Part shown: piece after piece, positions 3,172 to 43,543 of the stretch
Numbering within the stretch: the stretch's first letter is position 1
How the letters are laid out: every line of letters starts with the position of its first letter
Assembly (NCBI RefSeq): GCF_008001235.1
Contig: NZ_CP040751.1
Location: forward strand, 1,161,001-1,225,000
Direction: 5' to 3'
Source: Salidesulfovibrio onnuriiensis
GTDB taxonomy: Bacteria; Desulfobacterota; Desulfovibrionia; Desulfovibrionales; Desulfovibrionaceae
Length of the DNA: 64,000 bases
Position numbers and translations under genes: made by a program
The notes under the pieces: model-generated
Database searches by the model: none
What the model was told of the DNA's origin: nothing
Seen by the model: the letters and a program-made list of their open reading frames with translations, nothing else

Positions 3172-6126
3172 ATGAACCGAGGCTGGGACTTCTGCGCCAT
3201 CGGCGGCTCCGAATCCAAGTTCAGGACCTACCACGATCTCATGGCCCACAAGGTCCGTGACATTCTGCTCATCTCCACGCCCTACGACGCCTGGGTCATG
3301 GAGGAGGACTGCAAGCTCTCCGAACGCATCGTCAGCGAATACCGGGGCCTCAACCTGAGCCATCCACCCCGCCTCACCTGGGTTTCCTCGGTGGCCGAAG
3401 CCCTGGCCAAGCTGGACGAGCGGCGCTACGACCTGGTCATTCACATGCCGCAGCTCCAGGACATGGAGGACGTCAACGCCGGGCGGGCCATCAAGGAAAA
3501 GGACCCGGCCATGCCCATCATCCTGCTGACTCACCGGGACGTGAACTTTCCCGAGGGCAGGCCCCCGTGGTTCGACCGCCATTTTGTCTGGTCCGGCGAC
3601 GCCGACCTGCTGGTGGCCCTGGTCAAGCTCACCGAGGACGCCTGGAACGTGGATTTCGACACCCGGAGCATCGGCATTCGGGTCATCATCTTCGTGGAGG
3701 ATTCGCCGCGCTACATCTCCTCGCTGCTGCCCATCCTGTACAAGGAACTGGTGCTCCAGACCCAGAAGGTCATCGAGGTGGGGCTGAACCAGGAGCACCG
3801 TCTCCTGACCATGCGCGCCCGGCCCAAGATCCTTCTGGCCGAGACCTACGAGCAGGCCGTGCAGCTCTTTCACACCTACGAGGAATTCGTGCAGGGCGTC
3901 ATTTCGGACGTGCGTTTCCCCATGAACGGCAGCAAGGACCCCGAGGCCGGGGTGCGCTTTCTCAGGCAGGTCAAGGAACACCGGCAGGACATCCCCCTGC
4001 TCATGGCCAGCAACGAACCCCGGAACAAGGGCAAGGCCGCGCGCCTCCCCGCCTTTTTCGTGGACAAGAATTCACCGCTGCTCCTGGCCGACGTGCAGCG
4101 CTTCGTTTCGGACCAGCTCGGGTTCGGCGACTTCATCTTCCGCAGGCCGGACGGCACCGAGATCGCCCGTGCGGGGAGCCTCTACGTGCTGGAAAAGCTC
4201 ATGCGGGTGGTTCCGGACGATGTGTTTCTGCGCCACTGCCGCGACAACGATTTCTCGCGCTGGTTCTTTGCCCGCACCGAGTTCGACCTGGCCTGCAAGG
4301 TGCGGCCCCTCACCGAACAGGACTTCACGGACGTGGACAACATGCGCACCTATCTTGTGGAGGATATCGGCAAGCGGCGCAAGGAACGGCAGAAGGGCGT
4401 CATCGTCAATTTCAATCCCAAGGACTTTGACCCGGCCACGGACTTCATGAAGATCGGGGAGGGGTCCCTGGGAGGCAAGGCCCGTGGCCTGGCCTTTCTC
4501 TTCGCCCTGCTGGACAGGGCCGAAGATCTGGAGACCAAGTTTTCCGGGCGCATGACCATTTCCGCCCCCAGGACCCTGACCATGGCCACCCAGTGCTTTG
4601 ACGAGTTCGTGACCTTCAACGACCTCAAGTACCTGGCGGACAAGGACGTGGAGGACGGGGAGGTGGCGCGCATCTTCGAGCTGGCCGAGTTTCCGGGCTG
4701 GATCCGGGAACAGCTTCGGGCCTATCTCATGGAGATCGAGCATCCCTTGGCCGTGCGTTCATCCAGCCTGCTGGAGGATGCCCAGTTCCAGGCCTATGCC
4801 GGGCTGTACTCCACCTTCATGCTTCCCAACGACCACCCGGACATCGACTGCCGCCTGGACCAACTCGTCCATGCCGTGAAGATGGTTTTCGCCTCCACCT
4901 ATTTCAAGGCTCCCAAGGCCTTTTCCCGGCGCGTAAACCTGCGTACGGACGAGGAGCGCATGGGTGTGATCATCCAGGAGATCGTGGGCGAGCGCTACGG
5001 CGACTATTTTTATCCGGCCATGGGCGGGGTGGCCCAGTCCTACAACTATTATCCCTTTGGCCGCATGAAGCCGGAGGAGGGGGTGGCCTCGGTGGCCATG
5101 GGCCTGGGCAAGACCGTGGTGGACGGGGAAAAATGCCTGCGCTTCTCCCCGCGCTATCCCAAGGTGCTGCCCCAGTGCCCCACCATGGAGGAGACCCTCA
5201 AGAACGCCCAGAACACCTTTTTCAGCCTGCATATGCCCGGGGAATGCACCGTCAAAAGTTTTCTGGAGGGAGAGAACGTGGTGCGGCGGGACGTGACCGA
5301 GGCCGAGGAGAACGGTCCCCTGTCCATGCTGGCCTCCACCTATCTTCCGGAACAGGGGATCCTGCGCGATACCGCTGCCGTGGACGGCCCCAAGGTCATG
5401 GTCTTCGCCCCGGTGCTCAAGCACAAGGCCGTTCCCCTGGCCGAGGTGCTCGGGGATGTGCTCGAGGTGGCTCAGGAGGCCATGGGCGGGCCCGTGGAGA
5501 TCGAGTTCGCGGTAAACATGTATGCGGATGGGCGCACCCCGGAATTCTCGCTTCTGCAGGTGCGGCCCATGAGCGCCCTGGCCGATCTGCATCAGGTCAC
5601 CATCGAGCCGGAGGATATGGAACGGGCGTTCTGCTATTCCGAACATGCCCTGGGCAACGCAGAGAAGAGCGACATCAGGGACATCGTCTACGTGCGGCCC
5701 GATGCGTTCGACGCGGCCAAAACCGAGCAGATCGCCCGGGAGATCGGGGAGATCAACGTCCGCATGGTGGAGCAGGGGCGCAAGTACCTGCTCATCGGGC
5801 CGGGCCGGTGGGGGTCTTCGGACCGCTGGCTTGGGATTCCCGTGGGCTGGGCCGATATTTCCGGCGTTTCAGCGATCATCGAGACCTGGTGCGAGGAACT
5901 CCGGGTGGAGCCGTCCCAGGGGTCGCACTTCTTTCACAACATCACCACCCTGGGGATCAACTACGTCATGGTGCCCCAGACCGGCGAAAGCCGCCTGGAC
6001 TGGGACTGGATCACCTCGATTCCGGCCAAGCGGCACGGCGAGTTCCTGGCCGTGGCCGCCCTGGACGAACCCTGCACGGTCAAGGTGGATGGGCGTCAGT
6101 CCCGATGCGTCATGCTGCCCGGCTGA
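3172..6126 (+). CDS. REC-REC-PEP/pyruvate-binding (PPDK_N) fusion protein
   Basis: 984 aa. Residues about 20-160 and 170-315 look like two receiver (CheY-like) domains. The second keeps acidic E176/D177, a phosphoacceptor-like D246 (ISDVRFP), a Ser after it (LMASN) and K299 (VDKN). Residues about 425-800 are an ATP-grasp domain like the N-terminus of PEP synthase/PPDK: GEGSLGGKARGLAF, PLAVRSSSLLEDAQ and LLQVRPM. The phosphohistidine swivel domain and the PEP/pyruvate TIM barrel of true PpsA/PPDK are absent. In their place is a C-terminal part (about 870-984) with LIGPGRWGSSDRW and QGSHFFHN that I do not recognise. It therefore cannot run the full PEP synthase cycle. An ATP-dependent phosphotransfer or signalling role is inference. 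The gene lies alone between two terminators. Confidence 0.8.
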   Translation: MNRGWDFCAIGGSESKFRTYHDLMAHKVRDILLISTPYDAWVMEEDCKLSERIVSEYRGLNLSHPPRLTWVSSVAEALAKLDERRYDLVIHMPQLQDMEDVNAGRAIKEKDPAMPIILLTHRDVNFPEGRPPWFDRHFVWSGDADLLVALVKLTEDAWNVDFDTRSIGIRVIIFVEDSPRYISSLLPILYKELVLQTQKVIEVGLNQEHRLLTMRARPKILLAETYEQAVQLFHTYEEFVQGVISDVRFPMNGSKDPEAGVRFLRQVKEHRQDIPLLMASNEPRNKGKAARLPAFFVDKNSPLLLADVQRFVSDQLGFGDFIFRRPDGTEIARAGSLYVLEKLMRVVPDDVFLRHCRDNDFSRWFFARTEFDLACKVRPLTEQDFTDVDNMRTYLVEDIGKRRKERQKGVIVNFNPKDFDPATDFMKIGEGSLGGKARGLAFLFALLDRAEDLETKFSGRMTISAPRTLTMATQCFDEFVTFNDLKYLADKDVEDGEVARIFELAEFPGWIREQLRAYLMEIEHPLAVRSSSLLEDAQFQAYAGLYSTFMLPNDHPDIDCRLDQLVHAVKMVFASTYFKAPKAFSRRVNLRTDEERMGVIIQEIVGERYGDYFYPAMGGVAQSYNYYPFGRMKPEEGVASVAMGLGKTVVDGEKCLRFSPRYPKVLPQCPTMEETLKNAQNTFFSLHMPGECTVKSFLEGENVVRRDVTEAEENGPLSMLASTYLPEQGILRDTAAVDGPKVMVFAPVLKHKAVPLAEVLGDVLEVAQEAMGGPVEIEFAVNMYADGRTPEFSLLQVRPMSALADLHQVTIEPEDMERAFCYSEHALGNAEKSDIRDIVYVRPDAFDAAKTEQIAREIGEINVRMVEQGRKYLLIGPGRWGSSDRWLGIPVGWADISGVSAIIETWCEELRVEPSQGSHFFHNITTLGINYVMVPQTGESRLDWDWITSIPAKRHGEFLAVAALDEPCTVKVDGRQSRCVMLPG

Positions 6127-37747: not shown

Positions 37748-37778
37748 AGGGGGGTTGCTGATGCGGCCCCCCTTTTTT
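37748..37778 (+). terminator. Rho-independent terminator of cytochrome c3 gene
   Basis: Seven pairs, AGGGGGG with CCCCCCT, around a 12-base loop, then TTTTTT at 37773-37778. Confidence 0.85.
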
Positions 37779-37809
37779 GAGAGTTCACCCTTCCGTGGAG
37801 GTGAAGCAT

Positions 37810-39404
37810 ATGCCACCGGTTCCCCCGTCCGATTCCCCCGAGGACATCCTTGAATTGAACGATATTACCGAAAACGCCCAGGATGCAGCCGGCCAGGACG
37901 GCATTGACGCCGATTTCGAGCAGGAACTCGAGGATCTTTTCTCCGAGGAGCTTGATGATGGCCATTCCGGTGATGCGGATGACGAGCCCGTCCTGCTGGA
38001 TGATATCGCAGAGGACGTGAGTGGCGGTGCCGACGCCGCGGACGAAGACGAAGACATTTTGCTTCTCGACGAGGCTGTCGAGGAAGAGAACGACGCCATC
38101 CTGCTGGATGAGGTCGTCGATGAAGGTGGAGAAGACGAGGGTGAAGAAGATATCCTTCTCCTGGATGAGGTCGCCGGGGAATCCGTCCCGGAAGCCCCTG
38201 CGGACGAGGCGGAGGACGAGCCCGGCGACATGGACCTTGACGCCCTGCTGGACGAAACCGAACCCGCACCCCCTGCGGACGCTGCAGACCTTGACGCCCT
38301 CCTCGACGGTATCGAGGAAGAGGATGAGCCCGAACCCGAGCCTGAGGCTGCTCTCGACGAGGAAGCCATAGAGCTGGACGACCTGCTGGACGAAGGCTCC
38401 GCCGAGGCGGACGAGGGCGTGGCCGATCTGGACGACCTGCTGGAAGAGGCCGCTCCGGAACCCGAAGCTGCCCCGGAACCGGAAGCCGCTCCCATCGAGG
38501 AGGCGGCCATGGATCTCCTGGAAGAAGAGGATATCTCCCCGGCCGAGGAAATCTCCCTGGACGAGGTGGTGGAAGAACCTGCCGAGGAGGTCGAGGAAGA
38601 GTTGGTTCTTGAGGATGTGGCCGAGGAAGCTGCGGAAGAACCCGCCGAGGAGCTTGTCCTGGACGAGGCCCTGGCCGAAGATCTGGTGGCCGAGGAGCCG
38701 GTGACCGGCGAAGCCGCACTGGAAGAGGCGGCGACCGAAGAAGAGGAAATTTTACTGGAAACCGAGGAAGAGGGATCCGCAGCGGACGACGCCGCAGGAA
38801 CCGAGGCTTCGGATACCGCTTTTGACGCCTCGGTCCTTGAAGAGGCCATGGACCTGGAAATTCCGGTTCAGCTGGAAACCCCGGTCGAGGACCAGGGGCC
38901 GGCCATCGAGGGCGTGGAAGATGAGCAGATGGACGAGCTCGCCGGCCTGGAGCCCGAGGACGAGGCCGAGCTGCAGGAGATGGAACACCTGCTCGAGGGC
39001 GTGGACGTCTCCGATCTCATCGATGAAAGCCCGGACGAGGAAGATGTCGACATCCCCGAAATGGACATGACGGATATCGACCTTTCCGAAGAGGACATTC
39101 CGCACGAGGCCGGGCACGACATCTCCGGCGATGTGGACATGGACGCGCTGCTCGAGGGCGTGACCCACGAAAGCGCCAGCGTGGACGATCTCCAGTCGCG
39201 CATGGCCGCCCTGGAAGAACGCTTCGCCGTCATGGGCGGCGATGTGGGGGCGGCAGCCTGGAGGAACGCATCGATTCCCTGGAAGCCAAGCTCGACGATG
39301 TGGAGAATGTTGTCCGCAGGGAAGTGGAGCGTCTGGTGCCTGTCGAGGCGGCGCGCATCATCCGCGAGGAGATAGCGGCCTTGGCCCGCGAACTGGAAGA
39401 CTAG
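37810..39404 (+). CDS. Highly acidic LLDE-repeat protein, frameshift near C-terminus
   Basis: About 531 aa if a -1 shift is allowed. Residues 1-460 are Asp/Glu-rich with recurring LLDE-type motifs (DILLLDEAV, AILLDEVVD, DLDALLDE, ELDDLLDE, DLDDLLEE). A charged coiled coil begins near 465 (LQSRMAALEERFAVMGGD). At the G-run 39246-39250 the frame changes: the zero frame ends at 39375 in an unrelated Trp/Ser-rich tail, while the -1 frame continues the coiled coil (SLEERIDSLEAKLDDVENVV, VPVEAARIIREEIAALAREL) to a TAG at 39404. One missing G, a sequencing error or slippage would explain it. Start 37810 follows GGAGG by eight bases. No signal peptide; function unknown. Confidence 0.75.
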
Positions 39405-39524: not shown

Positions 39525-40559
39525 ATGAAACGTATTCTGTGCGCCGTCCTGCTGGTCGTCCTGTTTTCCTCTTCCGCCTTTTGCGCGGACCTGAGCAAGA
39601 ACTACCGCAATCTGTACAAGTCCGTGGTTACGCTCATGACCGTGGGCCGCACCCTGAGCGGTCCCGAGGGCGAATACACCGCGGCGCGCGGCCTCGGGTC
39701 GGGCGTGCTCATCTCCAGGGACGGGCTGATACTCACCGCGGCCCACGTGGTGCAGGTGGCGGACAAGGTGGGGGTCAAGTTCTACAACGACGAGGAAGTG
39801 GAGGCCCGGGTCATTTCAGCGCTTCCCTCGGCCGACCTCGCCCTGGTCCGGGCCGAATCCGTGCCCCCGGGCATCGAACCGGTCGCCCTGGGCAGCGCCG
39901 CATCCGTGCAGGCCGGGAACGAGATTTTCGTCATCAGCGCGCCCTATGGCCTGCGTTCCACCATCACCTCGGGGATCGTCAGCGCCCGGTACGAGACCGG
40001 GGCGCATCCCAAGTTCTGGCAGGCCGAGATGCTCCAGGTGGACGCGGCCGTGAACAAGGGCAGCTCGGGCGGTCCCCTCTTCGACATGAAGGGCCGCTGC
40101 ATCGGCATCGTCAGCCACCTCAAGAGCAAGACCGGCGGGTTCGAGGGCCATGCCTTTGCCGTGACCACCGACACGGCCAAGGAATATCTCATCGGCAAGC
40201 CGGCGGTCTGGACCGGCTTCAGCGGCAAGTACCTGGACGAGGAAATGGCCTGGGTGCTCAACCTGCCCACCAAGCACGGCTATCTGGTGGAAAAGGTGGC
40301 CGACGGCTCCCTGGGTCAGGAGATGGGGCTGCTGGCCGGAACCATCCAGGCCGAGATCGCGGGCAGGAAGATGTTTCTGGGTGGGGATATCATCCTGGAA
40401 ATGAACGATGTGCCCGTGGGGGAATTCAAGGAAAAGTATGACGATCTCATCCGGGATATCCAGAAGCGCGGGGCCCTGAAGCTCAAGGTGCTCCGGGGCG
40501 GCATGATTGTGGAGATGACCGGCGAGATCAAGGTGCTGGAGGCGGGCAATAGTCGCTGA
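39525..40559 (+). CDS. Periplasmic trypsin-like serine protease with PDZ-like C-terminus
   Basis: 344 aa, DegP/HtrA-related. Signal peptide 1-21 (cleaves near SAFCA). Catalytic triad visible: H74 (LTAAHVV), D104 (SADLALV), S181 (NKGSSGGPLF). Residues about 210-335 look like one PDZ domain (GYLVEKVADGSLGQ, GGDIILEMNDVPV). HtrA proteases degrade or refold misfolded envelope proteins; this one is short with one PDZ, so it may be a dedicated rather than general protease. Its 3' end overlaps the convergent CNBD gene by 32 bases. Confidence 0.88.
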   Translation: MKRILCAVLLVVLFSSSAFCADLSKNYRNLYKSVVTLMTVGRTLSGPEGEYTAARGLGSGVLISRDGLILTAAHVVQVADKVGVKFYNDEEVEARVISALPSADLALVRAESVPPGIEPVALGSAASVQAGNEIFVISAPYGLRSTITSGIVSARYETGAHPKFWQAEMLQVDAAVNKGSSGGPLFDMKGRCIGIVSHLKSKTGGFEGHAFAVTTDTAKEYLIGKPAVWTGFSGKYLDEEMAWVLNLPTKHGYLVEKVADGSLGQEMGLLAGTIQAEIAGRKMFLGGDIILEMNDVPVGEFKEKYDDLIRDIQKRGALKLKVLRGGMIVEMTGEIKVLEAGNSR

Positions 40560-41001
40560 TGTAGGCGGCCATGCGGCGGCTGATCTCGGTGATGTGCAGG
40601 AGCATGCCCTCGTAGAAGAGCAGCATCAGCGCGGGCATTTCCCTTTTCAGCTCCTCCATGTCGGCCACGGGCAGCACGGCCAGGCGCACCTGGGTGGCCG
40701 CTTTCATGGTGGCCGGGGCGCGCTGGGCGCGGCGCAGGTTGAAGAGCCCCACGGCCGAGCGCGAATGGGTCTGCCCCATGACGACCTGGCGGTTGTCCTC
40801 GTTGCGGACCTTGGCGTTGACCGAGCCTTCGAGGATGATGCCGATGTAGTCCCAGCTTCCTCCTTCGCGGTAGAGGAGTTCGCCCGGTTCCAGGCGCTGC
40901 ACGCGGAAACGGGATGCCAGGGTTTCCAGTTGGGACGCGTTCATGTCCTTGAAGACCGGCATGTCCGCCAGCGCCTGCCGCAAGCTTTGCTCTTCCATCA
41001 T
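40528..41001 (-). CDS. Stand-alone cyclic-nucleotide-binding (CRP-like) domain protein
   Basis: 157 aa. A CAP_ED beta-barrel fold: MPVFKDMNASQLETLASRF, LEPGELLYREGGSWDYIGII, ILEGSVNAKV and the region RSAVGLFNLRR. There is no helix-turn-helix DNA-binding domain. In cAMP-binding CRPs the phosphate-binding cassette has GE and an Arg; here the cassette is GLFNLRR, so ligand binding is doubtful. Its ATG overlaps the stop of the K+ channel gene as ATGA, implying tight translational coupling and a likely complex with the channel. Confidence 0.85.
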   Translation of the reverse strand: MMEEQSLRQALADMPVFKDMNASQLETLASRFRVQRLEPGELLYREGGSWDYIGIILEGSVNAKVRNEDNRQVVMGQTHSRSAVGLFNLRRAQRAPATMKAATQVRLAVLPVADMEELKREMPALMLLFYEGMLLHITEISRRMAAYISDYCPPPAP

Positions 41002-41777
41002 TCCTCTCCCGGCCAGTCCGATGTGACCACCCCTCGGGTGATGATGCCCACGGTGAGGGCGAACATGACATAGCCGACAATGCATTCGAAGGTGGCCAGC
41101 AGCTTGGCCCCGGCCGAGACCGGGGTCAGGTCGCCGTATCCCAGGGTGGTCATGGTCACCACCGTGTAATAGAAGGCGTCGATGAACAGGTGCGCCCCCG
41201 TGGCAAAGGGGAATTGCTTCCCGGCCAGCAGCCCCGTGGTGTGGGCTATCTCCAGGGTGGCGTTGATGAGCGTGAAGCTGGCGATGATGTTGACGTAGAT
41301 TTCCACCAGCCGCATGACCTCGGACCACATGGAGTAGCGGTTCGGCTTGAGCATCTCCCGCATGTTGCGCCCGAAGCGCCGGATGTGGGAGCAGGTCAGG
41401 GTCACCAGCAGGAACGTGGACACGGCCAGGCCCAGGTCGCTGACGAGCAGGAAGACCGTGGACCCGCCGCAGAGGAAGCCGGTCAGTGCGCTGATGTTGG
41501 CATGGCGCAGGCGCTCTTCGCGGACGCGTTCGTTCATGAGCGAAGCCATCATCCTGCGGCGCAGGAAGCGCTGGCAGACATAATTGAAGAGTGCGGTGGC
41601 CGCGCCGCTGAACAGGGAGAGCAGCAGGGCTATCGTGATCTGTGTCGAGGCCCCGGCGGCGTGGTAGGTTTTCTCCACATGCAGGGAGGCCACGGCCAGC
41701 AGGATGTATCCGAGGAAAAAGGAGGGCACTGCGTGCCGGAACATGATGCGCGAGGCTGGTTCGTGTGCGGTTTCCAT
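40998..41777 (-). CDS. Two-pore-helix type K+ channel (TLGYGD filter)
   Basis: 259 aa inner-membrane protein. Several hydrophobic segments lie in the first 170 residues (VPSFFLGYILLAVASL, TIALLLSLFSGAATALF, ALTGFLCGGSTVFLLV), followed by a pore module with FYYTVVTMTTLGYGDLTPVS, the K+ selectivity filter, and a last helix ECIVGYVMFALTVGI. The C-terminus is very short, with no RCK or CNBD domain. The following gene encodes a separate CNBD. Start ATG 41777 replaces an upstream TTG; no clear ribosome site is seen. Confidence 0.87.
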   Translation of the reverse strand: METAHEPASRIMFRHAVPSFFLGYILLAVASLHVEKTYHAAGASTQITIALLLSLFSGAATALFNYVCQRFLRRRMMASLMNERVREERLRHANISALTGFLCGGSTVFLLVSDLGLAVSTFLLVTLTCSHIRRFGRNMREMLKPNRYSMWSEVMRLVEIYVNIIASFTLINATLEIAHTTGLLAGKQFPFATGAHLFIDAFYYTVVTMTTLGYGDLTPVSAGAKLLATFECIVGYVMFALTVGIITRGVVTSDWPGEE

Positions 41778-41917
41778 CAATCGATACCGTTATATCGTTG
41801 CAATGAAAGTTTTCTGGACCTAGAATACGCTTTCGGATTTTTCGTCAAATAGCACAGTGTTCAAGCAAGATCATTCGTTTTGTGGCGGGTGGTTTCAGCA
41901 TTCCGGAGAGAAGAGTC

Positions 41918-43543
41918 ATGGACCCGTTGTGGTTGACGCTGGCGTTTTTGCTGGGCCTTGGGGCCCGTTTCATCAATCTGCCGCCCCTGGTCGGTTTTCT
42001 GGCGGCGGGCTTCGTGCTGCAGGCCATGGGTGTGGAGGGCGGTCCCACCCTGGAACGGCTGGCCGACATCGGCGTGCAGCTCATGCTCTTCGGAATCGGC
42101 CTCAAGCTCAAGGTGCGAAGCCTCCTGCGGCCCGAAGTCTGGGCGACGACCGTCATCCACATGGCCGCCTCCATCGCCTTTTTCGCGGCCCTGTTCCTGT
42201 GGCTTTCCCGTGCCGGGGGTGGCCCGTTCGCCGGGCTCGGCGTCGGCCAGTCCCTGTTGCTGGGGTTCGCCCTGAGCTTTTCCAGCACGGTCTTCGTGGT
42301 CAAGATCCTGGAGGAGCAGGGCGCGTCTGCCGCGCTGTACGGCCGGATCGCCGTGGGCATCCTCATTGTGCAGGATATCGCGGCCGTGGTCTTTCTGACC
42401 TTTGCCTCGGGCAAGGTCCCGTCCTGGTGGGCGCTGGCGCTCATTGCGGGCCTGCCGCTCATCCGCTGGGCATGCATGAGGATCATGGACCGCACCGGGC
42501 ACGGGGAGCTGGTGGTGCTGCTGGGCATCACCCTGGCCCTGGTGGTCGGGGCCGGGCTGTTCGAGCTGGTGGGGCTCAAGCCCGATCTCGGCGCGCTCGT
42601 CATCGGCCTGCTGGTGGCCAACCATCCCAAGGCGGGAGAGGTTTCCAAGTCCCTGCTGTCCTTCAAGGACGTCTTTCTGGTGGGCTTTTTCCTGAGCATC
42701 GGCCTTTCCGGCGAGCCCACGCGCCAGGCCCTGGTCGTGGGGTTGTGTCTGCTCCCGGTCATCCTGCTCAAGGGGCCGCTCTACCATGTCCTGCTGACCC
42801 GTTTTTCCCTGCGGGCCCGGACCTCATTTCTTTCCTCCATGGCCCTGACCAACTACAGCGAGTTCGGACTCATCGTGGGGGCCCTGGCCGTGCGCAACGG
42901 CTGGCTCGACCCCATGTGGCTCACCGCCATGGCCATTGCCGTGGCCCTGTCCTTTGTTGTGGCGGCGCCGCTCAACGGCGCGGCCCTGAGGATTTTCGGC
43001 GCGCTTCGGCAAACGCTGGTGCGCTTCGAGAGCCGGCGCGTGCATCCCGAGGAACGGCCCGTGGATATCGGGGCCCCCACGGTCATTGTCGTGGGCATGG
43101 GGCGAGTCGGGCAGGGGGCCTACGACTGGCTGCGCGAACGCTACGGCGACGTGCTGATCGGGACGGATATCAAGACCTCGGCGGTGGAGGCCAACCGGAA
43201 GGCGGGGCGCAACGTCTTCCTGGGGGACGCCACGGACCGCGAGCTTCTCGAAAGACTGCGCCGCAGCGACGGCGGCAAGACCCGGCTGATCCTGCTGACC
43301 CTGGGCCACCAGGCCAACCTGCGCGTGCTGCGCATGGCCCGCGACATGGGCTATGCGGGGCGGCTGGTGGCCGTGGCCCGCTACGAGGACGAAGTGACCG
43401 AGCTGCTTGGGGCGGGGGCGGACGCGGCCTTCAACCTGTTCCTGGATGCAGGGGCCGGTTTTGCCGAACACGCCGAGAAGGAGTTGCGCAAGGGCGGGGA
43501 TTGCCGGTGGATAGACGAACTGTGTGAACGGGCGGGTAACTAG
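41918..43543 (+). CDS. Kef-type K+/H+ antiporter with TrkA-N domain
   Basis: 541 aa. Monovalent cation:proton antiporter-2 family. An N-terminal transporter of about 12 hydrophobic segments (LGARFINLPPLVGFLAAGF, QLMLFGIGLKLKV, GFALSFSSTVFVVKILEEQG, AVGILIVQDIAAV) is joined at about residue 390 to a Rossmann TrkA-N domain (PTVIVVGMGRVGQGAYDWL) that senses nucleotide or glutathione adducts in KefB/C. Start 41918 has GGAG nine bases upstream; the GTG at 41882 is rejected. It is divergent from the K+ channel gene, so potassium control is a local theme. Confidence 0.9.
   Translation: MDPLWLTLAFLLGLGARFINLPPLVGFLAAGFVLQAMGVEGGPTLERLADIGVQLMLFGIGLKLKVRSLLRPEVWATTVIHMAASIAFFAALFLWLSRAGGGPFAGLGVGQSLLLGFALSFSSTVFVVKILEEQGASAALYGRIAVGILIVQDIAAVVFLTFASGKVPSWWALALIAGLPLIRWACMRIMDRTGHGELVVLLGITLALVVGAGLFELVGLKPDLGALVIGLLVANHPKAGEVSKSLLSFKDVFLVGFFLSIGLSGEPTRQALVVGLCLLPVILLKGPLYHVLLTRFSLRARTSFLSSMALTNYSEFGLIVGALAVRNGWLDPMWLTAMAIAVALSFVVAAPLNGAALRIFGALRQTLVRFESRRVHPEERPVDIGAPTVIVVGMGRVGQGAYDWLRERYGDVLIGTDIKTSAVEANRKAGRNVFLGDATDRELLERLRRSDGGKTRLILLTLGHQANLRVLRMARDMGYAGRLVAVARYEDEVTELLGAGADAAFNLFLDAGAGFAEHAEKELRKGGDCRWIDELCERAGN

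Follow-up and report, generated by a model that had tools for sequence, protein, structure and literature searches.

A potassium channel gene and an overlapping gene for a lone cyclic-nucleotide-binding domain in Salidesulfovibrio onnuriiensis

The channel gene and the CNBD gene overlap by four nucleotides

A 64,000-nucleotide stretch of the Salidesulfovibrio onnuriiensis genome (G000; 3.89 Mb in one contig), hereafter the window (G000:C1:1161001-1225000), carries on its minus strand a gene for a putative K+ channel followed by a gene for a lone cyclic-nucleotide-binding domain (CNBD). A sequence-only reading of this DNA had described a channel with a TLGYGD filter and no C-terminal gate, whose gene overlaps that of the CNBD as ATGA, and had proposed that the two products may form a split, two-protein gated channel with an altered ligand pocket. 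The description of the locus was confirmed by the open reading frames (ORFs), by Pfam and by a sister genome, G168, in which the same pair is found. The features of the pair are as follows.

41777..40998, minus strand: K+-channel gene; 259 amino acids (aa), putative five or six transmembrane (TM) segments plus a pore helix, 11-residue tail after S6
41147..41130, minus strand: selectivity filter TLGYGD, T211-D216, from translation and alignment
41001..40528, minus strand: lone CNBD gene; 157 aa, PF00027 match
40998..41001, minus strand: ATGA overlap of 4 nt between channel stop and CNBD start, lying within GAGGAATGATGG; same geometry in G168
41003..41010, minus strand: Shine-Dalgarno-like GGGAGAGG for the CNBD, within the last channel codons, identified by eye

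The channel matches the Pfam families Ion_trans_2 (E 1.1e-13) and Ion_trans (7.4e-07, residues 152-248), and its K+ selectivity filter lies within an Ion_trans_2 pore, as in cyclic-nucleotide-gated (CNG) channels of the MloK1 and SthK kind. T-L-G-x-G-D is invariant across a 24-row alignment of the channel. Hydropathy analysis revealed five stretches (about 16-34, 46-64, 107-132, 153-178 and 228-246), of which 107-132 is perhaps long enough for two segments, giving five or six TM segments. The AlphaFold model of the channel (3 rows) has six long helices and a pore helix, but its mean pLDDT is 42.7. The putative cytosolic loops 66-92 and 131-153 are positively charged; no arginine ladder was seen by eye in the would-be S4, and Pfam found no RCK domain in the window channel. 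The C-terminal gate is indeed missing in the sense that the chain has no cytosolic domain and ends 11 residues past S6.

The CNBD protein matches Pfam cNMP_binding with E 3.9e-11 and 43.2 bits against a cut-off of 27.5, and its counterpart in G168, at 28.1 bits, lies barely above the same cut-off. A second ATG immediately follows the CNBD start ATG, and GGGGAGG is the G168 counterpart of the Shine-Dalgarno-like site. The channel has an alternative TTG start one codon ahead of its ATG.

In G168 (L055/L075) the channel is 76% and the CNBD 61% identical to the window proteins, ungapped over 259 and 157 codons, respectively. Because this sister genome carries both genes and the same ATGA overlap, the pair is neither a chance arrangement nor an assembly error. 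The possibility that a frameshift or an assembly artefact had split a single fused gene was rejected, since both frames and the stop recur in G168; no slippery heptamer for a programmed -1 frameshift fusion was seen at the junction by eye, and a promoter and terminator scan of the minus-strand pair gave nothing above chance. Gene order in G168 is also as in the window: channel, CNBD, overlap, convergent protease, divergent CPA2 gene and ffh. The window neighbours are given below; the CPA2 protein has YbaL and KefC/KefB as its nearest NCBIfam names, every one below cut-off.

39525..40559, plus strand: trypsin-like serine protease, convergent neighbour; PF13365, E 1.4e-30
40528..40559, both strands: tail-to-tail overlap of 32 nt between CNBD and protease genes, present in G168 too
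41882..43543, plus strand: CPA2 antiporter (YbaL/Kef-like), divergent; Pfam Na_H_Exchanger and TrkA_N

Comparison of G000 with G168 by the Nei-Gojobori method gave nonsynonymous (dN) and synonymous (dS) values of 0.153 and 0.577 for the channel (dN/dS 0.27) and of 0.322 and 0.900 for the CNBD (dN/dS about 0.36), with dN/dS of 0.136/0.716 for the CPA2 gene and 0.200/0.665 for the protease gene. The CNBD gene is therefore a real gene under purifying selection, which evolves faster than the channel, CPA2 and protease genes. A spurious CNBD ORF was rejected by these ratios together with the Pfam match.

Elsewhere in the window (37777-39375), a long acidic low-complexity ORF of 532 aa, rich in LDE/LLDE and with no Pfam match, has an apparent frame change near 39240 compared with a single frame in G168 and in G148, one of the next closest genomes. 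This may be either a real frameshift or a sequence error.

Both signature contacts of the ligand pocket are lost

In the available text of PMC3854790, the Phe-Gly-Glu of CNBDs contacts the ribose and an arginine contacts the phosphate, and changing the phosphate-binding arginine of CRIS abolished its response to cyclic AMP (cAMP). Neither the glutamate nor the phosphate-binding arginine that mark the CNBD of a CNG-type channel is present in the window CNBD or in that of G168.

40744..40746, minus strand: Leu86 at the conserved Glu position of Phe-Gly-Glu; Leu in both species
40717..40719, minus strand: Ala95 at the phosphate-binding Arg position, with Arg94 one position earlier; same in both species

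The altered pocket that had been suspected is thus borne out, with Glu replaced by Leu and Arg by Ala. Because both signature contacts are gone, the ligand of the window CNBD is probably not classical cAMP, and the residues at the two positions make classical cAMP binding unlikely. Among 19 matches in a phylum sample, 17 keep both the pocket Glu and the pocket Arg, and the near-identical L187 and L188 lack both. L187 and L188, both lone CNBDs, belong to a different family of the phylum; a CNBD of the own genome, L015, is also without the pocket Glu. Since these three deviate, pocket loss also occurred elsewhere among CNBDs of the phylum.

When the window CNBD was compared with solved structures, the best match was a PKA-regulator-like protein, at 43.7 bits for two domains together and 32.7 for the best single domain. 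The channel structures HCN4 and MlotiK1 scored 26.8 and 20.3 bits, a small margin below the PKA-regulator-like match.

Most relatives carry the channel without the CNBD

The channel is patchily distributed, being found at E<=1e-15 in 27 of the 36 genomes of the genus set and in 32 of 347 genomes of a class sample, all of them in the own family (5 of 59 genera). A CNBD orthologue occurs in the genus only in the own genome and G168, five other genomes giving weak matches of at most 26% identity. Family-wide, CNBD matches at E<=1e-8 were confined to the same two of 288 genomes, with none anywhere in the other 286. By tblastn (E<=1e-3), no window-type CNBD lies near the channel in 25 of the 27 channel-bearing genus genomes, nor in any of the five channel-bearing genomes of other genera. 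In most relatives examined the two genes are thus not together, the outcome that had been named in advance as refuting the proposal. A profile scan of genome contigs with the channel alignment found, among the 80 loci listed, mostly generic pores and near-full channel matches only at L075 (residues 1-259) and L076 (1-254); when the two window-type CNBDs were searched against the ORFs of these 80 loci by phmmer (E<=1e-3), L075 was the sole match.

The survey of neighbours in the genus covered mostly ~5 kb on each side in 23 genomes and 1.5-kb flanks in G153 and G152; a few surveyed channel loci end at contig ends, the G149 contig stopping 0.9 kb past the channel. A CPA2 homologue is the commonest gene directly downstream of the channel on the same strand (14 of 27 genus genomes). 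The pair-holders G000 and G168 differ from this: there the CPA2 gene sits on the opposite flank of the channel and is transcribed divergently, and it is the CNBD that takes the downstream place. In G148 and G167, the next closest genomes, neither a CNBD nor a CPA2 gene was seen beside the channel. ffh lies near the channel in most genomes. The CPA2 antiporters YbaL, KefB and KefC belong to K+ efflux systems, although the channel is not known to be a component of the described Kef system. Because the channels of most relatives stand without it, the window CNBD looks like an add-on to a channel that presumably functions without any CNBD of this type.

These data bear directly on the proposal of a split CNG channel, in which a fused pore-CNBD gene broke and its pieces reassemble as a classical cyclic-nucleotide-gated channel. 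As far as the available text of PMC6093708 and PMC6768053 goes, SthK and its relatives are single chains carrying pore and CNBD. The window CNBD starts directly behind S6, the place of a fused CNBD, and matches channel CNBD structures too; a short join of pore and CNBD is possible in principle, because MloK1 is described as lacking a C-linker in the accessible part of PMC6093708. However, the CNBD is not joined to the C-terminus of S6 but is a separate ORF in both G000 and G168, and the Rosetta-stone search for fused versions was negative: a fused CNBD is absent from all 32 channels, own included, and no chain among them extends more than about 30 residues beyond S6. A 796-aa open frame in G170, tried as a fusion candidate, proved on reading to hold a 253-aa channel with its own stop. 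In addition, channels without an adjoining window-type CNBD are the rule, the pocket contacts are lost, and the best structure match, by its small margin over channel CNBDs, is PKA-regulator-like. Compared with the bacterial CNG channels MloK1, SthK and LliK, the window pair shares the K+ filter, possibly six TM segments and, by gene order only, the CNBD; it differs in the separate CNBD gene, the lost pocket residues and, by eye, the missing S4 arginine ladder. Taken together, these results largely refute the split CNG channel, which we consider very improbable. What stands of the original proposal, besides the altered pocket, is two separate genes in a coupled geometry that is kept in a second species.

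A second channel-CNBD pair in the same genome is widely conserved

A search of the own genome with PF00027 gave 10 matches, one of which led to a second pair of a channel and a lone CNBD, hereafter pair 2.

G000:C1:1125396-1127110: pair 2, about 34 kb upstream of the window, from the own-genome search
L215 (G000:C1:1121000-1131000) 6111..4921, minus strand: pair-2 channel; 396 aa, 2TM, Ion_trans_2 and RCK/TrkA_N by Pfam
L215 4924..4397, minus strand: pair-2 lone CNBD; 175 aa, canonical FGE and R, start overlapping the channel stop by ATGA

Common to both pairs is a lone CNBD gene directly downstream of a channel gene, on the same strand and with an ATGA overlap. However, the pair-2 channel combines 2TM with RCK and its CNBD has a canonical pocket, whereas the window pair has neither, and the two differ in spread (68 of 285 versus 2 of 288 family genomes). 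The pair-2 CNBD gave 69 matches in those 68 genomes, from 17 of 44 genera, and in all 69 an RCK channel lies directly upstream on the same strand, none fused. The junction is a 4-nt overlap in 40 of the 69; in 28 more it ranges from a gap of 15 nt to an overlap of 11 nt, and in one partial match the start is unsure. Because starts were picked nearest to the channel stop, these overlap sizes lean short. The pocket is retained almost throughout, with Glu in 68 of 69 (one Asp) and Arg in all.

In the phylum sample, 156 of 395 genomes have a pair-2 CNBD match at E<=1e-12. Outside the family, 31 rows stand apart by their E values (E<=4e-30, the next being 6e-24), and a channel lies upstream in all 28 examined of them, from 10 families, again with none fused; 26 are spaced within 35 nt, one by 149 nt, and one junction is unclear. 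At three of the 97 pair-2 loci (L253, L262 and L292) the channel matched in its RCK part only. G168 carries the window pair and has no pair-2 CNBD match at E<=1e-20, so the two pairs are independent of each other. The own genome has two matches to class III cyclases, so that pair 2 can probably draw on cyclic nucleotides. No description of pair 2 was found in the open-access literature, which is weak evidence. By its sequences and gene order, pair 2 is a conserved two-gene unit, a stronger lead than the window pair and a better test case for gating in trans.

Origin of the window CNBD

CNBD matches at E<=1e-8 occur in 19 of the 395 genomes of the phylum sample, own included. They are mostly lone, in open frames of about 160-230 aa, or stand behind a repeat-rich N-terminus that by eye looks like TPR, and the genes in their 1.5-kb flanks have, by eye, no relation to channels. 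These stand-alone proteins resemble the window CNBD in single domain, size and nearest sequence; they differ from it in that no channel was seen adjoining them by eye and in the pocket residues, both kept in 17 of 19. In a tree of 42 rows, the two window-type CNBDs pair (100/99) on a long branch, to which stand-alone CNBDs are nearest by path length, weakly. An own-genome CNBD, OWN_L210, joins the window pair with 92/49, and the program flags this as long branches meeting. On balance, the sequences favour recruitment of a free CNBD over fission of a CNG channel as the probable origin.

One conceivable source is pair 2 itself, the window CNBD being a diverged copy of the RCK-pair CNBD that moved beside a second K+ channel. 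Both pairs reside in the same genome with the same ATGA geometry, and a tree constrained to group the window CNBDs with those of pair 2 was not rejected (P value of the approximately unbiased test, p-AU, 0.17). However, the best tree places the window CNBDs elsewhere, the pair-2 CNBDs forming their own clade (99/96). The branch leading to the window CNBD is very long, and the protein is without the C-terminal TTALALxLS motif of pair 2. We consider such a duplication improbable.

A candidate accessory regulator acting in trans

Our preferred reading, to which we give a probability of about 0.5, is that the window pair comprises a K+ channel and a recently recruited, lineage-specific, separately encoded accessory regulator that would act in trans. 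In its favour, the pair, its ATGA overlap and the entire block are kept in G168, and pair 2, in the own genome and in the phylum, provides a precedent for a lone CNBD gene coupled to that of a K+ channel. The purifying selection on the CNBD, the many channels that stand without it, the mostly stand-alone CNBDs nearest to it, the pocket substitutions shared by both species and the two cyclase matches also fit this reading.

Several observations weigh on the other side. Between the two pair-holders the S4-S5 linker is 87% and the tail 91% identical, compared with 52-57% and 36-45% towards G167/G148, but the whole channel is likewise more conserved between them (76% versus 53%), and the DNA of the channel tail also houses the ribosome site of the CNBD. 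Only two genomes, including one metagenome-assembled genome, are known to have the pair, and the promoter and terminator scan found no minus-strand promoter match upstream of it. The AlphaFold models are too poor for use, with mean pLDDT of 40.9 for the CNBD (2 rows) and the equally low value given above for the channel. Moreover, ATGA overlaps are common in bacterial operons and do not prove that the products interact; translational overlap is frequent even where the encoded proteins do not bind one another.

These points leave real, if smaller, room for the view that the two are neighbours only: the channel would work alone and the CNBD would regulate something else, for instance a soluble partner or the CPA2 antiporter encoded divergently, and compact packing after the CPA2 rearrangement would account for the overlap. 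Indeed, 30 of the 32 channel-bearing genomes have no adjoining window-type CNBD, the gene that most often follows the channel within the genus is that of CPA2 rather than of a CNBD, and the nearest phylum relatives of the CNBD mostly stand alone beside other genes. The block is also compact on both sides, since the convergent protease gene overlaps too. However, the exact overlap has been kept in the sister genome despite divergence of the CNBD to 61% identity, and, as pair 2 shows, the combination of a K+ channel and a coupled lone CNBD recurs in the phylum.

If the CNBD is an accessory regulator, it would have been gained beside the channel in the G000/G168 lineage, and the two genes would be co-transcribed and translationally coupled, which would place the CNBD close to the channel. 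It may then dock in trans on the cytosolic face of the channel, at the S4-S5 linker and the short C-terminal tail, and shift the open probability of a channel able to work alone. Lacking a covalent link to S6, it is unlikely to open the gate by pulling, as happens in fused CNG channels, and would more plausibly stabilise or destabilise a channel state. Its ligand may be another small molecule, or it may have none and serve as a constitutive clamp.

POPDC proteins are animal membrane proteins. According to the accessible text of PMC8706714, the cAMP-binding POPDC1 modulates the K2P channel TREK-1 in trans, so that a K+ channel is influenced by a protein on a separate chain. As far as this source goes, the system is an analogue of the window pair in working only: the two share no family, and POPDC binds cAMP. 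In the open-access literature, no separately encoded CNBD with a bacterial K+ channel was found, and none for Desulfovibrio, which is weak evidence.

Implications

The window pair is real, unusual and narrow, and it is probably young. What makes it valuable is that the same genome has two different arrangements of a channel with a lone CNBD, this one and another that is broadly conserved. The window pair would capture a stage at which a sensor has only recently come to lie next to a channel whose counterparts in most relatives have no such sensor at their side. A broader possibility, which the sequences raise and which we advance only tentatively as rather doubtful, is that bacteria of this phylum run K+ channels through trans-acting CNBD subunits, with pair 2 as the conserved form and the window pair independently assembled and shifted in its ligand. 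If this were true, a modular, non-covalent class of cyclic-nucleotide-modulated channel would exist beside the fused CNG channels. In the known cyclic-nucleotide-modulated channels, as portrayed in the parts of the cited sources available to us, the sensor is on the same chain and acts on S6. Coupling would have to work differently for a separately encoded sensor, which would illustrate how the regulation of a channel is put together from individual parts. Pair 2, which occurs in the own family and, within the phylum sample, in 10 others, makes this question of gating in trans testable with two small proteins.

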